From: a virus
IMG/VR virus record: IMGVR_UViG_3300042509_003092
Coordinates: 1-22,885 of that record
Direction: 5' to 3' (one strand)
DNA length: 22,885 bases
Under the pieces are notes generated by a model. It saw only the letters and a program-made list of their open reading frames with translations, was not told the DNA's origin and ran no database searches. Of the stretch, positions 3,341-16,781 are shown piece after piece. The position numbers and the translations under genes were made by a program. Position 1 is the stretch's first letter. Every line of letters starts with the position of its first letter.

Positions 3341-4473
3341 TGGCGAACCCCAAACACGTCCCGACTTGCAAACGCGCGAACGTTTGAATGCAAGTTGTCT
3401 GACGCAATAAGGCCCGCTATCTCTTGCAGGCTTTTGCCCCTCATGGCCTCAAGAAGCTCCGCCGCGAGGCGCCTCCGCCAGGTGTCGTGATCCCCGGCTG
3501 CAGTGCCTGAGGGCGCTTGAGACGGACGCATGGCAGAAGAGGGGCTGGCCGGGCGCGGAGGCATGGGGGGAAAGCCGGGCGCGCGCGAACGATCTTGGCT
3601 CGCAGGCGCAGGGGGCGCAGGGGGCGCGGGAGGAGCTGGAGGTGCTGGAGGTGCTGGAGGTGCAGCGGCTTGCTCTTCCGCGATGCGCTGGCGCTCCTCT
3701 TGCCGCGCCTGCTCGGCAGCTTCTGCGCGGATTTGCTCTTCCCGCTCTTTCCGCTCCTCCTCCTCTCGCTGCTTCCTTTCCTCCTCCTCCTGGGCTTCGG
3801 CTGCCTCGCGCATCCTGGCATTGCCCCCCGCGTGAAGAAGGAAGACCGCTGCTCGTTCCAAGGCCTGCTTCGCTTCTTCTTGAAACTCTTCCCGATCCTC
3901 GGGGGGATTCTCTTCCGCGAACACGCGAAGGCTCTCACACAGCCCGTCGATCTCTTCCGATGTCTTCGCCACTCGGTCCAGTTTTCCTGGCTCCCGGATG
4001 ATCCGCTGCTCAAATCGCTGAAGCTCTGCAATCACATCCCTGTGCCCCTGGACACGGGCCTCCTCGGCCTTTTGAATCTCCGTCAAGGCGTCGACATGTG
4101 GCTGGATCAAGCCCTCAAGCGGTTCCGTCAGGGCTTTCTCGGCCTGGATCATGCCCTTCCATCGCTTGTGATGAATGTCAGATGCTGCCTTTCTGGCGGC
4201 GATGATCTCAGTGATGAGTTTCTTGATCTTGCCGATAAACTTCCTTGCGGCCTTTTCGCCTTCAATCGAGCTGTAGTTGAACGGCTCGATTGCCTTGCCA
4301 TCCTTAACCGCCTCTTTGACTTTGAGCTGGAGAACCTCCCATTGCTCCAGGACGCGCACGTCGTCCGAGTCCTGAGCGGCAAGAGCAGAAGAGTCTTCCC
4401 GGCCTGACAGGTCGTCATTTGGATCAAATTTGGTTGGGATGTAGCCAGTGCCCGCTTGGATGATCTTGGTCAT
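3337..4473 (-). CDS. Coiled-coil protein with proline-rich repeats, unknown function
   Basis: A 378-residue protein in three parts. Residues about 50-205 are predicted helical, including EKALTEPLEGLIQPHVDAL, which recalls long-helix phage proteins that accompany recombination genes (weak resemblance). Residues about 215-270 are an uninterrupted Glu/Arg/Lys/Gln coiled coil (EEEERKQREEEERKEREEQ). Residues about 271-295 are a tandem PAP repeat. A Pro/Ser/Arg-rich linker and a folded-looking C-terminus (WRRRLAAELLEAMRGKSLQE, then IAGLIASDNLHSNVRAF) close the protein. Such architecture suits an elongated scaffold or structural linker. The ATG at 4473 overlaps the previous stop (ATGA). No catalytic motif is visible. 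Confidence 0.7.
   Translation of the reverse strand: MTKIIQAGTGYIPTKFDPNDDLSGREDSSALAAQDSDDVRVLEQWEVLQLKVKEAVKDGKAIEPFNYSSIEGEKAARKFIGKIKKLITEIIAARKAASDIHHKRWKGMIQAEKALTEPLEGLIQPHVDALTEIQKAEEARVQGHRDVIAELQRFEQRIIREPGKLDRVAKTSEEIDGLCESLRVFAEENPPEDREEFQEEAKQALERAAVFLLHAGGNARMREAAEAQEEEERKQREEEERKEREEQIRAEAAEQARQEERQRIAEEQAAAPPAPPAPPAPPAPPAPPAPASQDRSRAPGFPPMPPRPASPSSAMRPSQAPSGTAAGDHDTWRRRLAAELLEAMRGKSLQEIAGLIASDNLHSNVRAFASRDVFGVRH
3604..3663 (-). repeat. Short tandem repeat encoding PAP units
   Basis: On the plus strand, copies of GGGGGCGCA/GGAGCTGGA-like 9-mers followed by three GGTGCTGGA-type units run in tandem. They encode the proline-alanine repeat of the coiled-coil protein on the minus strand. 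Such 9-bp repeats are prone to slippage, so copy number may vary between related phages. Confidence 0.75.
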
Positions 4474-5334: not shown

Positions 5335-5802
5335 CTACATGGGTGCAGAGCCGTTGTCAAGCCGACTTGCGTCTCGTGTTGCCTCGTCAATGGCCCAGGC
5401 GGCGAGGGCCTGCTCGGTGAAGACCGCCGCGGCCCGGCCATCGGTGGCCTCGCAGAACCTGGCCCAGATCCACCCCCGCCGTTGGCTGTTGCCCATGGAG
5501 GAGACATGGGGGTTGAGCACCAACATGCGTTGCTTGGTTCGGGGATCCTTCCAGGTGGCCACCAGCAGCGCCTTTCGCAGCCGCCCGATCGAATGGGCCA
5601 CATGCGAGCCCGAGAGCCCGTAGAGGCTGCCCAGGTGGTCGGGGCTGAGCACCACCGCTCCAAGGGCAGGGATGACGTGCTGTTGCAGCAGTTGCCAGGT
5701 GGAGAGGTCGAGAGGCCGGATGACTCGATCGCTCAGAAGCCCTTGCCACAGCCCTGGCAGCTGGTGGGCCATCACAAAAAACCTCTCGGTGCAAGACTCC
5801 AT
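5335..5802 (-). CDS. Winged-helix DNA-binding protein, RepL-like replication initiator candidate
   Basis: A 155-residue protein, first gene of the leftward operon. Residues about 30-85 form a helix-turn-helix unit (LSPDHLGSLYGLSGSHVAHS, then IGRLRKALLV). A wing-like strand segment, RMLVLNPHVSSMGN (92-105), follows. The order HTH, recognition helix, wing with an (L/I)NPxxxxxGN-like motif resembles plasmid RepL-type initiators, which end their winged helix with a similar NP...G segment. It is also compatible with a repressor. Two starts are possible: ATG at 5802, or ATG at 5772, which has GAGAGG about nine bases upstream. It lies beside a region with a DnaA box, a palindrome and tandem 9-bp repeats, which favours an origin-binding role. 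This is inference from motif and context. Confidence 0.6.
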   Translation of the reverse strand: MESCTERFFVMAHQLPGLWQGLLSDRVIRPLDLSTWQLLQQHVIPALGAVVLSPDHLGSLYGLSGSHVAHSIGRLRKALLVATWKDPRTKQRMLVLNPHVSSMGNSQRRGWIWARFCEATDGRAAAVFTEQALAAWAIDEATRDASRLDNGSAPM

Positions 5803-5899
5803 CTGTCGCCTGCTCTGTGGGGGTTGGCGGCGGAGCCAGTGATCTGCAGTCGTGTTCCCGCACGGCTACAGGGAGGCTCCTGCGCGTCCAAATGTAGCT

Positions 5900-5908
5900 T
5901 GTGGAAAA
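5900..5908 (-). promoter_or_regulatory. DnaA box (TTTTCCACA on minus strand)
   Basis: The plus strand reads TGTGGAAAA, which is TTTTCCACA on the minus strand. This is identical to the DnaA-box consensus reported for the Synechococcus elongatus chromosomal origin. I noticed no other copy of this 9-mer in the window. It sits about 100 bp upstream of the winged-helix initiator candidate. A single box can occur by chance, so the weight comes from the neighbouring repeats. Confidence 0.5.
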
Positions 5909-5956
5909 ACCCCTCTCCAAACAAAACCCAGTCACAGCAAGGGATCTGAATTTCGG

Positions 5957-5977
5957 CTGTGCAGAAAAATTGCACAG
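5957..5977. promoter_or_regulatory. Perfect 7-7-7 inverted repeat, operator candidate
   Basis: CTGTGCA (5957-5963) and TGCACAG (5971-5977) are perfect inverted copies separated by the A+T-rich spacer GAAAAAT. A 21-bp dyad with a 7-bp spacer has the geometry of a dimeric helix-turn-helix operator. It lies about 155 bp upstream of the winged-helix gene and could be its own binding site. Confidence 0.5.
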
Positions 5978-6044
5978 AGCGAGGCGAAAACCCAGATCTG
6001 GACAGGGCTGGGTTGCGTGAGCCTTCTTGATCTCTTAAGTCAGA

Positions 6045-6128
6045 ACACCAGGAACAGCCGAGACAGCCAGAACAGCCAGGGCATCCAGGACAACCCGGGG
6101 CCACCCAGGACCACCCGGAACGACCCGA
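6045..6128 (+). repeat. Nine degenerate 9-bp tandem repeats (iteron-like)
   Basis: Consecutive 9-mers starting at 6045: ACACCAGGA, ACAGCCGAG, ACAGCCAGA, ACAGCCAGG, GCATCCAGG, ACAACCCGG, (2-nt slip) CCACCCAGG, ACCACCCGG, (1-nt slip) ACGACCCGA. The consensus is near ACAnCCAGG. The units are shorter than classical plasmid iterons but lie between the initiator-like gene with its DnaA box and the early genes. An RNA or protein-binding array, or a slippage product, are alternatives. Confidence 0.6.
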
Positions 6129-6149
6129 AGGCCAGAAAGCAAATCCTTA

Positions 6150-6183
6150 CCCCCTTACGGGAAGGGGGGGGCCCGCTTGCGGG
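6150..6183. other. Two adjacent G/C hairpins
   Basis: CCCCCTT (6150-6156) pairs with AAGGGGG (6162-6168) across the loop ACGGG. Directly after it, CCCGC-TT-GCGGG (6172-6183) forms a second short hairpin. No T-run follows on either strand, so a standard intrinsic terminator is not supported. Confidence 0.45.
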
Positions 6184-6536
6184 GGGTCGTCAGACCCGGT
6201 GGATGCCTGTGGTCGCGCCAGCGGCCTCAGGGAGCCACCCCCAGGGGCCTCCAGCGGTGCTCAGGCCCTCCGGGATGGTCGGGACTTCTCGCAGCCCCTC
6301 AAAACCCCACACAGGGCCCAATGGAGCTCTGCACCACTCCAGGGGTTCGGGCAAATCCCTGCAATTTTGGGTCGCCTAATTGAGTGGGGTACCGCTTGGC
6401 GATCCGAGCAGGCGCCCCCCCATGCCCCCTGCCCGGCCGGCCACCAGGGGCGCAGGGGGCCAGGGTGGCCGGCTGTGCTTGGCCAGGGGGCAGCGGCAGC
6501 AGCAGGGGGGCTAAGCCCTTGTGGCTACTGGGCTGA

Positions 6537-6563: not shown

Positions 6564-6582
6564 TGAGAATGATTCTCATTCC
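6564..6582. promoter_or_regulatory. Fur/Zur-family box 1
   Basis: TGAGAATGATTCTCATTCC contains the perfect 7-1-7 palindrome TGAGAAT-G-ATTCTCA. It matches the Fur-family 7-1-7 consensus TGATAATnATTATCA at 12 of 14 arm positions, with symmetric changes at positions 4 and 12. A further half-site TTCTCA follows at 6585-6590. It lies about 200 bp upstream of the first rightward early gene. Confidence 0.55.
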
Positions 6583-6621: not shown

Positions 6622-6640
6622 TGAGAATGATTCTCATTCC
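6622..6640. promoter_or_regulatory. Fur/Zur-family box 2
   Basis: The 19-bp sequence is identical to the box at 6564-6582 and starts 58 bp later. A -10-like TATGTA follows immediately at 6641-6646, so a protein bound here would cover a rightward promoter. The spacing to a -35-like TTGAGA (6621-6626) is only 14 bp, so the promoter itself is uncertain. Flanking bases of the two copies differ, which argues that the 19-mer itself is what is conserved. Confidence 0.55.
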
Positions 6641-7165: not shown

Positions 7166-7735
7166 ATGGCTAACCGACAGACAAAAACTGATCGACTGAT
7201 CATTGAAAACCTTCCACTCGCCGACAGGCTGGGAGCCAGTGCAGCCAGGCGACTGTGCGGGTTGGCGGAGAAGGATGACTTAATTCAGGAAGCACGAATG
7301 GCGCTAGTTTTAGCTGCCAGAAAATGCGACGAACAAAGAGAACCTACAGCTTACATTATCGCCTCAATTCGCGGAGCTATTCAGCACTACGTAAGGGATA
7401 AAGTCCGTATGGTTCGCGTCTCTCGCCGAGAGCATGAGAAGAGCCGGCCACCATTCGCCCATGCCTCCTTGGATGCCTGCCTGCCGTGCGGCACCCCATT
7501 CGTGGACCTGCTGACCGCTGATCCGGTCACCACCGACCAGGCGGATGAGTCTCCAGAGGAGCTGGAGGCACTGGTGGAACAGTTGCCAGCGGCAGACGCG
7601 GCAGCGCTTCGTCTCACCCTGCTACAGGGCATGTCACTGCGGCAGGCAGGGGAAGCCCTCGGCGTCTCAGTGATGACAGCTCAGCGCAGGAAGGAACGAG
7701 CGGTCAAGGCCATTCGAGAAGCCCTGCAAGCGTGA
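7166..7735 (+). CDS. RNA polymerase sigma factor, sigma-70 family (group 3-like)
   Basis: A 189-residue sigma factor that would redirect host RNA polymerase to phage promoters. Region 2 covers about residues 10-90: LIIENLPLADRL, KDDLIQEARMALVLAARKCD and YIIASIRGAIQHYVRDKVRM, ending VRVSRREHE. This is the pattern of core-binding and -10-recognition segments in SigB/SigF-type factors. Region 4 covers about 132-187, with the helix-turn-helix LRLTLLQGMSLRQAGEALGV followed by SVMTAQRRKERAVKAIREAL. Region 3 appears reduced to a linker. It lies between the membrane/SAP gene and ArdC. The start follows a CA-rich leader. Coexistence with a single-subunit phage RNA polymerase downstream is unusual. Confidence 0.85.
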   Translation: MANRQTKTDRLIIENLPLADRLGASAARRLCGLAEKDDLIQEARMALVLAARKCDEQREPTAYIIASIRGAIQHYVRDKVRMVRVSRREHEKSRPPFAHASLDACLPCGTPFVDLLTADPVTTDQADESPEELEALVEQLPAADAAALRLTLLQGMSLRQAGEALGVSVMTAQRRKERAVKAIREALQA

Positions 7736-8804: not shown

Positions 8805-9338
8805 ATGGCAACAATGAGCAAAAATCAAATACGCCTGCCACTGAATGAGGCAAGGATGATTGCCGAGCGGGTGGTTGCCGAGCTGGAGCCTCACTGTTGG
8901 ATGATCAGCATCGCTGGAAGCATTCGCCGAGAGCGTCCGACCATCGGTGACATCGAGATCGTTTGCGTGCCGCGCCCTTACGACGCCTCGCCGCTGTTTC
9001 AGTCTGGCATCGCCACGGTTGTGAACCAGTGGGAAGCGGTGCGTGGAGAGCTGCCTTGCAAGTACACCCAGCGAAAATTGCCCGAGGGGATGAATCTGGA
9101 CCTGTTCATGGTCAATCCTGAAGGGTGGGGCTTGCAGCTGGCGATCCGCACTGGCTCCGCCAGCTGGTGTCGTGAGGTGCTCGCAAAGGCCTGGGTTCGC
9201 GCAGGATTCCGTTCCAAGGATGGCCTACTGCGCAACAAGCTAGGTGCGGGCACCGTGCAATTTGTTCGCACTGAGCGCGAGCTGTTCGAGATTATCGACC
9301 TGCCGTGGGTTGAGCCTGTAGACCGTGAATTCCCTTAA
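8805..9338 (+). CDS. DNA polymerase X-like nucleotidyltransferase
   Basis: A 177-residue protein with the palm and finger signature of family X polymerases: AGSIRRERPTIGDIEIVCVP (37-56) with the GS...RR motif and the acidic pair D49/E51, the third acid D99 in NLDLFMV, the RTGSASW motif (115-121) for nucleotide binding, and a C-terminal DLPWVEPVDRE (165-175) like the end of Pol beta-type enzymes. It lacks the 8-kDa lyase domain, so it is shorter than repair PolX. Similar short proteins are known in phages. It may fill gaps or extend ends. It is too small and of the wrong family to be the main replicase. The start is ATG 8805 after a CA-rich leader. A second ATG is at 8814. Confidence 0.82.
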   Translation: MATMSKNQIRLPLNEARMIAERVVAELEPHCWMISIAGSIRRERPTIGDIEIVCVPRPYDASPLFQSGIATVVNQWEAVRGELPCKYTQRKLPEGMNLDLFMVNPEGWGLQLAIRTGSASWCREVLAKAWVRAGFRSKDGLLRNKLGAGTVQFVRTERELFEIIDLPWVEPVDREFP

Positions 9339-10108: not shown

Positions 10109-10383
10109 CCCGGCTTGTGTTTGGCCTTGCCATCCCTCAGGTTTTCCGGCCCGGCTGGGCGGGGGTCACCATCCACGTACGGCAAGGGATGGTTTTCGTA
10201 CACTGGTGGAAGACAGAGCGACACAAGCACCTAGGGCCATGGGTTTTCTGGAGCTACAGAGGTGCATTGGCCTTTTCGCGGTGCTTGATCCGCAGATGCC
10301 TTTGCATTTCATGCAGATATTTCTGCACGTGGCTCAGGGGCCCGCAGAAGGGCTCACGTATCGGGAGCTGGAGGAGGCAATGA
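10105..10383 (+). CDS. Possible small protein overlapping the second MarR-like gene
   Basis: A 92-residue frame that starts with an ATGA overlap on the preceding gene and would fill the 130-bp gap before the next regulator. Its first 45 residues (TRLVFGLAIPQVF, VTIHVRQGMVFVHWW) have protein-like hydrophobic alternation. The remainder overlaps the MarR-like gene and is Cys/Arg/Trp-rich, which looks like an out-of-frame reading. It may be a short gene with a fortuitous tail or no gene at all. Confidence 0.3.
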   Translation: MTRLVFGLAIPQVFRPGWAGVTIHVRQGMVFVHWWKTERHKHLGPWVFWSYRGALAFSRCLIRRCLCISCRYFCTWLRGPQKGSRIGSWRRQ

Positions 10384-10571
10384 GCCTCACCAACTCCAGC
10401 GTCTCCCGAACACTTGATGCCCTGGGAGAGGAGCACAGAAAGGGATATCGAGGCTATGGCCTCATCGAAAGGAAGCCAGACCCTGCCGATTCCCGACGGC
10501 TACGGGTCTTCCTTTCCGCCAGGGGCCACGCCCTGGCCAACCAAATCGTCAACCACACCACACAATCATGA
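10239..10571 (+). CDS. MarR-like winged-helix regulator (second)
   Basis: A 110-residue protein with good MarR features: dimerisation-type N-terminal helices (LELQRCIGLFAVL, MPLHFMQIFLHVAQG), the HTH LTYRELEEAMSLTNSSVSRT with following LDALGEE, a wing with LIERKPDPADSRRLRVFLSA, and the closing ARGHALANQI. The DPxDxRxxxxxLxxxG wing motif is the classic MarR signature. The last codons (NQIVNHTT) run through a 24-bp sequence that is repeated before the integrase. The stop overlaps the next start (ATGA). It is a likely lysogeny or early-gene regulator beside the integrase. Confidence 0.75.
   Translation: MGFLELQRCIGLFAVLDPQMPLHFMQIFLHVAQGPAEGLTYRELEEAMSLTNSSVSRTLDALGEEHRKGYRGYGLIERKPDPADSRRLRVFLSARGHALANQIVNHTTQS
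10542..10565 (+). repeat. 24-bp direct repeat / CA-rich leader, copy A
   Basis: A 24-bp sequence with the core GTCAACCACACCACACAA that is identical to 10791-10814. Here it lies in the last codons of the MarR-like gene and ends two bases before the ATG of the next gene. It carries the same CA-rich leader theme found before the sigma, ArdC and PolX-like genes. Confidence 0.85.
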
Positions 10572-11948: not shown

Positions 11949-11990
<42 letters not shown>

Positions 11991-12003
11991 TTTCTCAGCC
12001 GTG

Positions 12004-12077
12004 CACCCCTGCAGCATTGCCCACCAGTACGGCGCCGAGCGCCTGAGCAGCGCCTGATCGCCATCTCTGCAGGGGTG
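12004..12077. other. Structured segment with 11-bp perfect inverted repeat
   Basis: CACCCCTGCAG (12004-12014) and CTGCAGGGGTG (12067-12077) are perfect inverted copies. Inside them are a GGCGC-CGA-GCGCC hairpin (12031-12043) and a direct repeat of GCGCCTGA (12039 and 12050). The segment lies between the attachment core and the RNA polymerase gene. It may hold further integrase arm sites or fold as the 5' leader of the polymerase mRNA. Confidence 0.5.
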
Positions 12078-15604: not shown

Positions 15605-16062
15605 AATCCATTCTCGCCCTGGACCTGGGAACAACAATGGGCTGGGCAACAAAAGTTCCAGCCGGAGTCATTGTTTCGGGAGTAACCAACCTACGAGGAG
15701 GTCGTTTTGAGGGAGGCGGGGCTCGTTTCCTGCGCTTTAACCAGTGGCTGGAGGGGAGGATCGCTCGTATAGACGCTTGCTACTACGAGGAGGTCCGAAG
15801 GCATTTGTCCACGGACTCGGCCCATATTTACGGAGGCCTTCTCGGAATACTTCAGGCGTTCTGCGAGTCTAGGCAGATTCCTTACATCGGGGTACCCGTT
15901 GCCACGATCAAGAAGCATGCCACCGGCAGGGGCAACGCCAACAAGCAGGCGATGATCCAGGCCGCCAGGGATCGAGGGCACAAGCCTGAGGACGACAACG
16001 AGGCAGACGCACTCTGCCTCCTGCATTGGGCCATTGAGCAGGAGGCACCGCCTCCGGCATGA
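15601..16062 (+). CDS. RuvC-like Holliday junction resolvase
   Basis: A 153-residue nuclease of the RNase H-like fold. The first catalytic acid is D8 in ILALDLGTTMGWA, the second E63/E64 in YYEEVRRH, and the C-terminal pair in DDNEADALCL (D131/D132 and D136). VATIKKHATGRGNANKQAM (100-118) is the basic helix typical of phage RuvC-like enzymes. It stands in for T7 endonuclease I (gp3), resolving branched DNA before packaging. It is coupled on both sides by ATGA overlaps. Its length is normal for phage RuvC proteins and all acids are present. Confidence 0.88.
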   Translation: MKSILALDLGTTMGWATKVPAGVIVSGVTNLRGGRFEGGGARFLRFNQWLEGRIARIDACYYEEVRRHLSTDSAHIYGGLLGILQAFCESRQIPYIGVPVATIKKHATGRGNANKQAMIQAARDRGHKPEDDNEADALCLLHWAIEQEAPPPA

Positions 16063-16781
16063 ACTGTCCCAACTGCAACGAATCTGTCACGCAGGTTCGG
16101 TCAACCCGACGGCTCGCCAGTGGCGACGTCAGGCGGATGCGGGCTTGCAGCGCATGCGGTCACAGCTTCCCCACTCTGGAAGCTCTACTTGATCCAGCCA
16201 GCATGAGTGCGGGCAACCTCGCGGAGTTGAAGCCGGCTCCGCGGCGAAGCCCGCCCCCAGGGGGCGCCTACATGAACCCCGAAATTGCCGAAGGATTACT
16301 GCCTCCTTTGCTGGCCGAGAAGGTGGTGGATTGGTGGGTGACAGCCCGCCGGCTGAAGCACGGCCGAAAAGCCGTGTGGTCCGAGAGGGCTTTTCGTGGC
16401 TCGCTTAACCGGGTGGTGGCCCTGTACCAGGCCAATCCAGCCAAGGCGGACTACCTGGTGGAGCGAGGCCTTGAACAGGGCTGGCAATCTCTCGACCCGG
16501 AGTTTGTTCAAAACCACAAGGCCTATCAGGACATTCCGCCCCCACCCAATCCAGGTGATCGGAGGCCACTGACCGATCCGAGCAGGATTGTGTCGGCTGC
16601 CGAAGCAACCCGCGATTGGCCGGCGGCTCCCCCCAGGCCAGTGGCATTGCCGTGGGGGGAGAACAAGCAGCCACCTCCTGAAATCCAGATGAGCCCATGC
16701 GCCAAACGCTTTGAGCAGGGAGACCCAGCCGCAGCTCAACAGGCAAAGCGGCAAATCCAAAACCTATTCAAGATCCCATGA
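16059..16781 (+). CDS. NrdR-like zinc-ribbon protein with helical C-terminal domain, possible replication protein
   Basis: A 240-residue protein. Residues 1-41 form a zinc ribbon: CPNC (C3, C6) and CSAC (C30, C33) around TQVRSTRR and VRRMRA, then GHSFPTLE. This is very close to the NrdR N-terminal pattern CPxC...RRRRxCxxCxxRFTTxE. There is no NrdR ATP-cone after it. Instead residues about 75-150 are helical (EKVVDWWVTARRLKHGR, SLNRVVALYQANPAKADYLV), with ERGLEQGWQSLDPEF resembling the helix-GW segment at the C-termini of phage replication proteins. The tail is Pro-rich. It is coupled with RuvC and the exonuclease, in the slot where T7 encodes primase-helicase and DNA polymerase. Role inferred only. 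Confidence 0.65.
   Translation: MNCPNCNESVTQVRSTRRLASGDVRRMRACSACGHSFPTLEALLDPASMSAGNLAELKPAPRRSPPPGGAYMNPEIAEGLLPPLLAEKVVDWWVTARRLKHGRKAVWSERAFRGSLNRVVALYQANPAKADYLVERGLEQGWQSLDPEFVQNHKAYQDIPPPPNPGDRRPLTDPSRIVSAAEATRDWPAAPPRPVALPWGENKQPPPEIQMSPCAKRFEQGDPAAAQQAKRQIQNLFKIP

Follow-up and report, generated by a model that had tools for sequence, protein, structure and literature searches.

The window analysed here is a 22,885-base IMG/VR fragment from a temperate T7-like cyanophage, a relative of Synechococcus phage S-SRP02. Between positions 5335 and 6128 it carries a gene for a 155-residue winged-helix protein (5335–5802, minus strand), an exact DnaA box (5900–5908, minus strand), a 7-7-7 palindrome (5957–5977) and about nine degenerate 9-bp tandem repeats (6041–6126), all located as an earlier note on this DNA had described them. 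That note read the four features together as a plasmid-like replication origin; the features are all present, but only the winged-helix gene is conserved beyond one near-identical contig. This contig (32,157 bases; terminase large subunit, TerL, 99% identical) matches the window over most of the overlap and extends it by 10.7 kb to the left, where a comparison with PHROGs yielded no replication gene, only structural, tail or unknown genes. The gene set of the window lineage comprises a single-subunit RNA polymerase, an integrase, a MarR-type regulator, SSB, a RuvC-like nuclease, a 5'-3' exonuclease, portal, scaffold and terminase. A sigma-70 type factor in the early operon (7166–7735; regions 2 and 4 above the Pfam cut-offs) coexists with the phage's own RNA polymerase. 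The nearest named relatives are S-SRP02 and the uvMED fosmid phages S38-C3, S31-C1 and S37-C6, and gene content was compared across 22 related records; in a TerL tree, the nearest relative after the near-identical contig is locus L077. The isolate S-SRP02 grows lytically (PMC8790148) and carries the winged-helix gene set studied here.

The winged-helix gene sits at a divergent junction between the terminase side and the early genes, where it heads a leftward operon running to TerL. A 99%-identical copy of the protein exists, and S-SRP02 (p013) and S38-C3 each have a homologue at this junction. A profile built from these two homologues and the window protein retrieved 42 loci in IMG/VR, which were aligned. 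The family, previously unnamed, is characterised by an N-terminal ENFVMV, the winged helix and, after the wing, NPYLASVGGPxRRGHLWQQF, and the gene is under purifying selection among relatives (dN/dS 0.03–0.20 in five pairs). A search of 84,980 bacterial and archaeal genomes returned a single match, on a Cyanobium MAG contig. A different winged-helix gene with O-like matches, found in the same place in S37-C6, was rejected as a member because comparing profiles did not tie it confidently to the family (probability 8%).

The 155-residue protein has by itself no meaningful family match. We scanned 15 other family members individually against Pfam, including RepL (PF05732; gathering score 20.3 bits). 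Eight of them reached the RepL gathering score (20.9–23.6 bits) over almost their full length, in most cases with residues 4–121 aligned to profile positions 31–137 of 164, and no other Pfam family scored above its own cut-off in any of the 15. The window's own protein gave no RepL match at E ≤ 1 and is for that reason not filed as RepL; the RepL resemblance noted earlier is supported through the family members that reach the cut-off. Matches of family members to PHROGs include O-like initiators and DnaD-like loaders, at weak scores. Many members also match general models of winged-helix regulators, among them MarR_2, which reached at most 24.3 bits against a curated cut-off of 27. The AlphaFold model of the 155-residue protein (pLDDT 79) consists of a winged helix with further helices after it. 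Similar structures in the PDB are, at Z of about 8, RepA initiators (4pql, 4pt7, 4pta) and the DnaD N-terminal domain (2v79) and, at similar Z, SarX, CRP and MarR regulators. Its nearest Foldseek matches in the PDB were MarR repressors; its matches among viral models included the S38-C3 homologue and a RepL protein (RepL model E 5e-4). As initiator and regulator folds score alike, the fold alone leaves the function undecided. Alternatively, the winged-helix protein could regulate transcription from the divergent promoters, either as an autorepressor or as an early/late switch, with the repeats as its operators. The generic regulator models and the Foldseek matches count for this explanation, as do the orientation of the gene, which faces the early operon, and the conserved boxes and palindromes upstream of it (see below); on the other hand, no regulator family exceeds its cut-off, whereas RepL does. 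Together with the evidence from MarR and from gene content given below, this makes a regulatory role rather unlikely.

Upstream of the gene, the sequence TTTTCCACA at 5900–5908 is identical to the published cyanobacterial DnaA box (PMC4674748) and is the only exact copy within the window, where 0.17 copies are expected and at least one appeared in 15 of 100 shuffles. The stretch 5900–5999, examined for an AT-rich unwinding element, has 48% GC, which lies at the 8th percentile of the window. The near-identical contig has the box too; none of the other 41 loci checked had an exact copy upstream of the winged-helix gene, and L077 has neither the box nor the 9-mers. The 9-mers form a real non-coding array (period-9 identity 0.61), although the window is equally or more periodic at three further places (near 3600, 15130 and 20190); the length of the array differs between the window and the near-identical contig, and other relatives lack a counterpart. 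No counterpart in relatives was seen for the palindrome (CTGTGCA-GAAAAAT-TGCACAG) either, which is ordinary for this DNA: the window contains 32 perfect palindromes with 7-bp arms and a spacer of at most 8, so that one can be expected roughly every 600 bp. Comparison with related loci therefore ruled out the DnaA box and the 9-mers as conserved parts of an origin, so that the plasmid-like origin seen in them earlier is not supported, and they may be incidental.

Other elements upstream of the winged-helix gene are conserved. Box A, TTAAGAGATCAAGAA (6024–6038, minus strand), reads TAGAGAGATCAGAG in relatives, and box B, AGATCCCTTGCTGTGACTGGGT (5926–5947, minus strand; a single exact copy in the window), reads AGAYCCSTTGCNNNNACTGGGT. 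Box B occurs once each in the window, in S-SRP02 and in several other records with the winged-helix gene, and was absent from the examined loci of the three primase-type phages described below. A third element conserved upstream of the gene in relatives, CGCGACCCAAAANNGGGA, was examined as a candidate phage promoter and is nearly single copy; its weak counterpart in the window is, tentatively, GGCGACCCAAAATTGCA (6360–6376, minus strand). The Fur-box-like 7-1-7 palindrome TGAGAATGATTCTCATTCC is present in two exact copies (6564–6582 and 6622–6640, plus strand), which lie towards the early operon within the divergent region. In S-SRP02, G003, G004 and G012, the 18-bp pattern TGAGAATNNTTCNCATTC is likewise found exactly, at a distance of 600–790 bp upstream of the winged-helix gene. 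This palindrome could subject the early genes to a metal sensor of the host, or could be another operator. Sites resembling GCTCTCCACCTGTG recur several times in the S-SRP02-like genomes L006, G003 and G004, including positions just before and just after the winged-helix gene; the window contains none.

The GC-skew check proposed with the earlier reading did not place the minimum at the site. The cumulative minimum in the window lineage lies about 2 kb to its right, at weak amplitude, and detrended minima of S-SRP02-like relatives lie mostly 5–8 kb away towards the early/RNA polymerase side. Because the amplitude is small and the minima are inconsistent, skew is uninformative for the origin; an origin at 5800–6400, itself weakly supported, is neither favoured nor excluded by it. 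The origin might instead lie elsewhere, for example near the Zn-ribbon/O-like gene described below or, as in T7, at a promoter for the phage RNA polymerase, with the DnaA box and 9-mers at 5900–6126 being incidental. The absence of both elements from relatives outside the near-identical contig and the displaced minima of the relatives argue for such a location, while the skew is confounded by gene direction and boxes A and B near the winged-helix gene are conserved; we consider the probability of an origin elsewhere to be slightly short of even. Such a location is compatible with the winged-helix protein as an initiator.

The lifestyle proposed earlier was integration, possibly combined with that of a phage-plasmid. 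The first part agrees with our data: the window has an integrase gene adjoined by a tRNA-like remnant, which together indicate integration. This tRNA-like stretch (11949–12009, directly after the integrase gene) scored 29.2 bits against an Rfam threshold of 29, was not called as a tRNA by ARAGORN, and is probably what is left of a tRNA-Leu gene at the attachment site. A phage-plasmid lifestyle is unsupported, as tblastn detected no homologue of the window protein among 72,556 plasmids. Family scans of the main genes gave no convincing match to ParA or ParB.

The MarR-type regulator, a likely repressor, is encoded at 10239–10571 (plus strand) and has counterparts in 21 of the 22 related records. 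The only CCTAGG in the window (10230–10235) is located 3 bp before its likely start codon. Both the MarR and the winged-helix promoters of relatives are marked by the palindrome GACTCCTAGGAGTC: most S-SRP02-like genomes have GACWCCTAGGWGTC 36–60 bp ahead of the winged-helix gene, often twice, and also close to the MarR start, with only one further site (S-SRP02 18904) beyond those two promoters in 14 genomes and an expectation of 0.03 per 42 kb. MarR looks like the repressor because these palindromes mark both promoters, and the arrangement suggests that MarR regulates the winged-helix operon. That the phages have a separate MarR, whose own promoter carries palindromes matching those of the winged-helix promoter, argues against the winged-helix protein being the regulator.

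The position of the winged-helix gene upstream of TerL, in the same operon, also raised the question of a role in packaging. HTH domains are found in the small subunits of terminases, and the genome ends of T7-like phages are located between the terminase and the early genes. Both points would fit the 155-residue protein being the terminase small subunit, or another protein that binds the packaging site, with the intergenic region as the concatemer junction. However, three relatives with 48–52% identical TerL (S31-C1, S37-C6 and G014) do without the winged-helix gene, another conserved small ORF separates it from TerL in the S-SRP02-like phages examined, several ORFs lie between the two in the window, and the matches of the family include no terminase small-subunit family. 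A packaging function is accordingly improbable. The small conserved ORF between the winged-helix gene and TerL (MYLSNxxRIRLGL...VNEAF; L006:9278-9649) is found in the same place in L016, L024, L025 and L041 and is unannotated in S-SRP02.

Overall, no match to a family A or B DNA polymerase (PolA, PolB) was found in any of the 22 records, in line with the earlier remark that replicase genes are missing. The annotated 'DNA polymerase I' of S-SRP02 is a homologue of the window's exonuclease, and no PolA polymerase domain was found in the S-SRP02 record. A short PolX-like protein (8805–9338), in which the DNA polymerase beta thumb scored above cut-off and the palm weakly, is unlikely to be a replicase. 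As to the accompanying idea that such a set would supply what the missing replicase genes cannot, an initiator could not replace a polymerase and would have to recruit that of the host.

The winged-helix gene is present in 19 of the 22 records, and the three without it (the same S31-C1, S37-C6 and G014) are exactly those that encode a DnaB/toprim protein of the helicase-primase type. We considered whether this swap could be counted as many independent events; this was ruled out, as the TerL tree gives a single change, so that the swap has the weight of one coincidence and could be coincidental. The presence of the gene where the helicase-primase is absent, in phages without PolA or PolB, nevertheless lends support to an initiator working through recruitment of the host replisome, and the absence of the gene exactly where a helicase-primase is present speaks against a regulator. 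We therefore propose, at roughly balanced confidence, that the 155-residue protein is a RepL-related initiator providing the DNA-binding part of host-dependent replication in polymerase-less temperate T7-like cyanophages. Points that count against this are the missing RepL match of the window's own protein, the equally good scores of regulator folds, the lack of conserved iterons or DnaA boxes upstream of the gene, a GC skew that does not indicate this site, and the modest O-like matches described below. The earlier hunch about the protein is thus better supported than the origin drawn around it, and the earlier interpretation as a whole is partly supported.

A candidate partner of the winged-helix protein is encoded at 16059–16781 (plus strand), a Zn-ribbon protein whose C-terminal domain matches the O-like initiator profile phrog_678 at 213–296 (E 1.4e-5), which is the C-terminal part of that profile. 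Winged-helix members match the same profile at 74–127, weakly (best E 0.01), and four of 11 Zn-ribbon members match it, with modest scores. The C-terminal domain is present in 18 of the 19 winged-helix records, while in the three helicase-primase records the Zn-ribbon protein matches over the N-terminal ribbon only. This distribution suggests that the winged-helix protein and the O-like domain might constitute a split initiator. That the helicase-primase was swapped for such a two-gene initiator, a RepL-like winged-helix protein encoded at the terminase/early junction plus a Zn-ribbon protein carrying an O-like domain for helicase recruitment, is a speculative and, on balance, unlikely extension of our proposal. 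A DnaN-like gene that also matches a RusA-like profile (L006:10903-11607) starts the early operon of S-SRP02 and is found in only four of the 22 records.

In the proposed mechanism, the winged-helix protein would bind phage DNA, probably near its own gene, with boxes A and B as the best candidate binding sites, and would draw DnaB helicase and Pol III from the host, perhaps joined in this recruitment by the O-like domain of the Zn-ribbon protein. MarR would probably repress the winged-helix gene during lysogeny, acting through the two palindromes on its promoter in relatives. This strain's DnaA box and 9-mers are dispensable for the model.

Compared with known systems, the family is similar to RepL of small Firmicute plasmids in size class, in its winged helix and in the NP...G motif after the wing. 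Unlike plasmid RepL, the window protein is below detection by the RepL profile, gave no plasmid homologue in the tblastn search and is encoded by an integrase-bearing phage. S-SRP02 (MW822601) and the uvMED group G9 phage S38-C3 share with the window the homologous gene at the same divergent junction, MarR, integrase, RNA polymerase, SSB, the Zn-ribbon protein, the exonuclease and the lack of a DNA polymerase, but their winged-helix proteins are only 22–28% identical to that of the window and their upstream regions have neither an exact DnaA box nor 9-mers. Similar to lambda O-type initiators and DnaD-type loaders, the proposal combines a winged-helix DNA-binding part with a separate helicase-recruiting part, and the two phage proteins match different halves of the O-like profile phrog_678; in contrast to lambda O and DnaD, the parts would be on two proteins encoded 10 kb apart, and the matches are weak to modest. 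The MPP-C cyanopodoviruses are likewise T7-like without a DNA polymerase gene, and recruitment of host Pol III has been proposed for them (PMC9860041); they retain a helicase-primase, whereas the winged-helix phages lack one.

How polymerase-less T7-like cyanophages replicate has been posed as a question for the abundant MPP-C clade (PMC9860041). Our analysis names a conserved gene as a candidate initiator whose presence mirrors the absence of the helicase-primase, and, as its lineage includes the isolate S-SRP02, the question becomes directly testable. If true, a split initiator would turn a self-replicating T7-type phage into one copied wholly by the cyanobacterial Pol III replisome.
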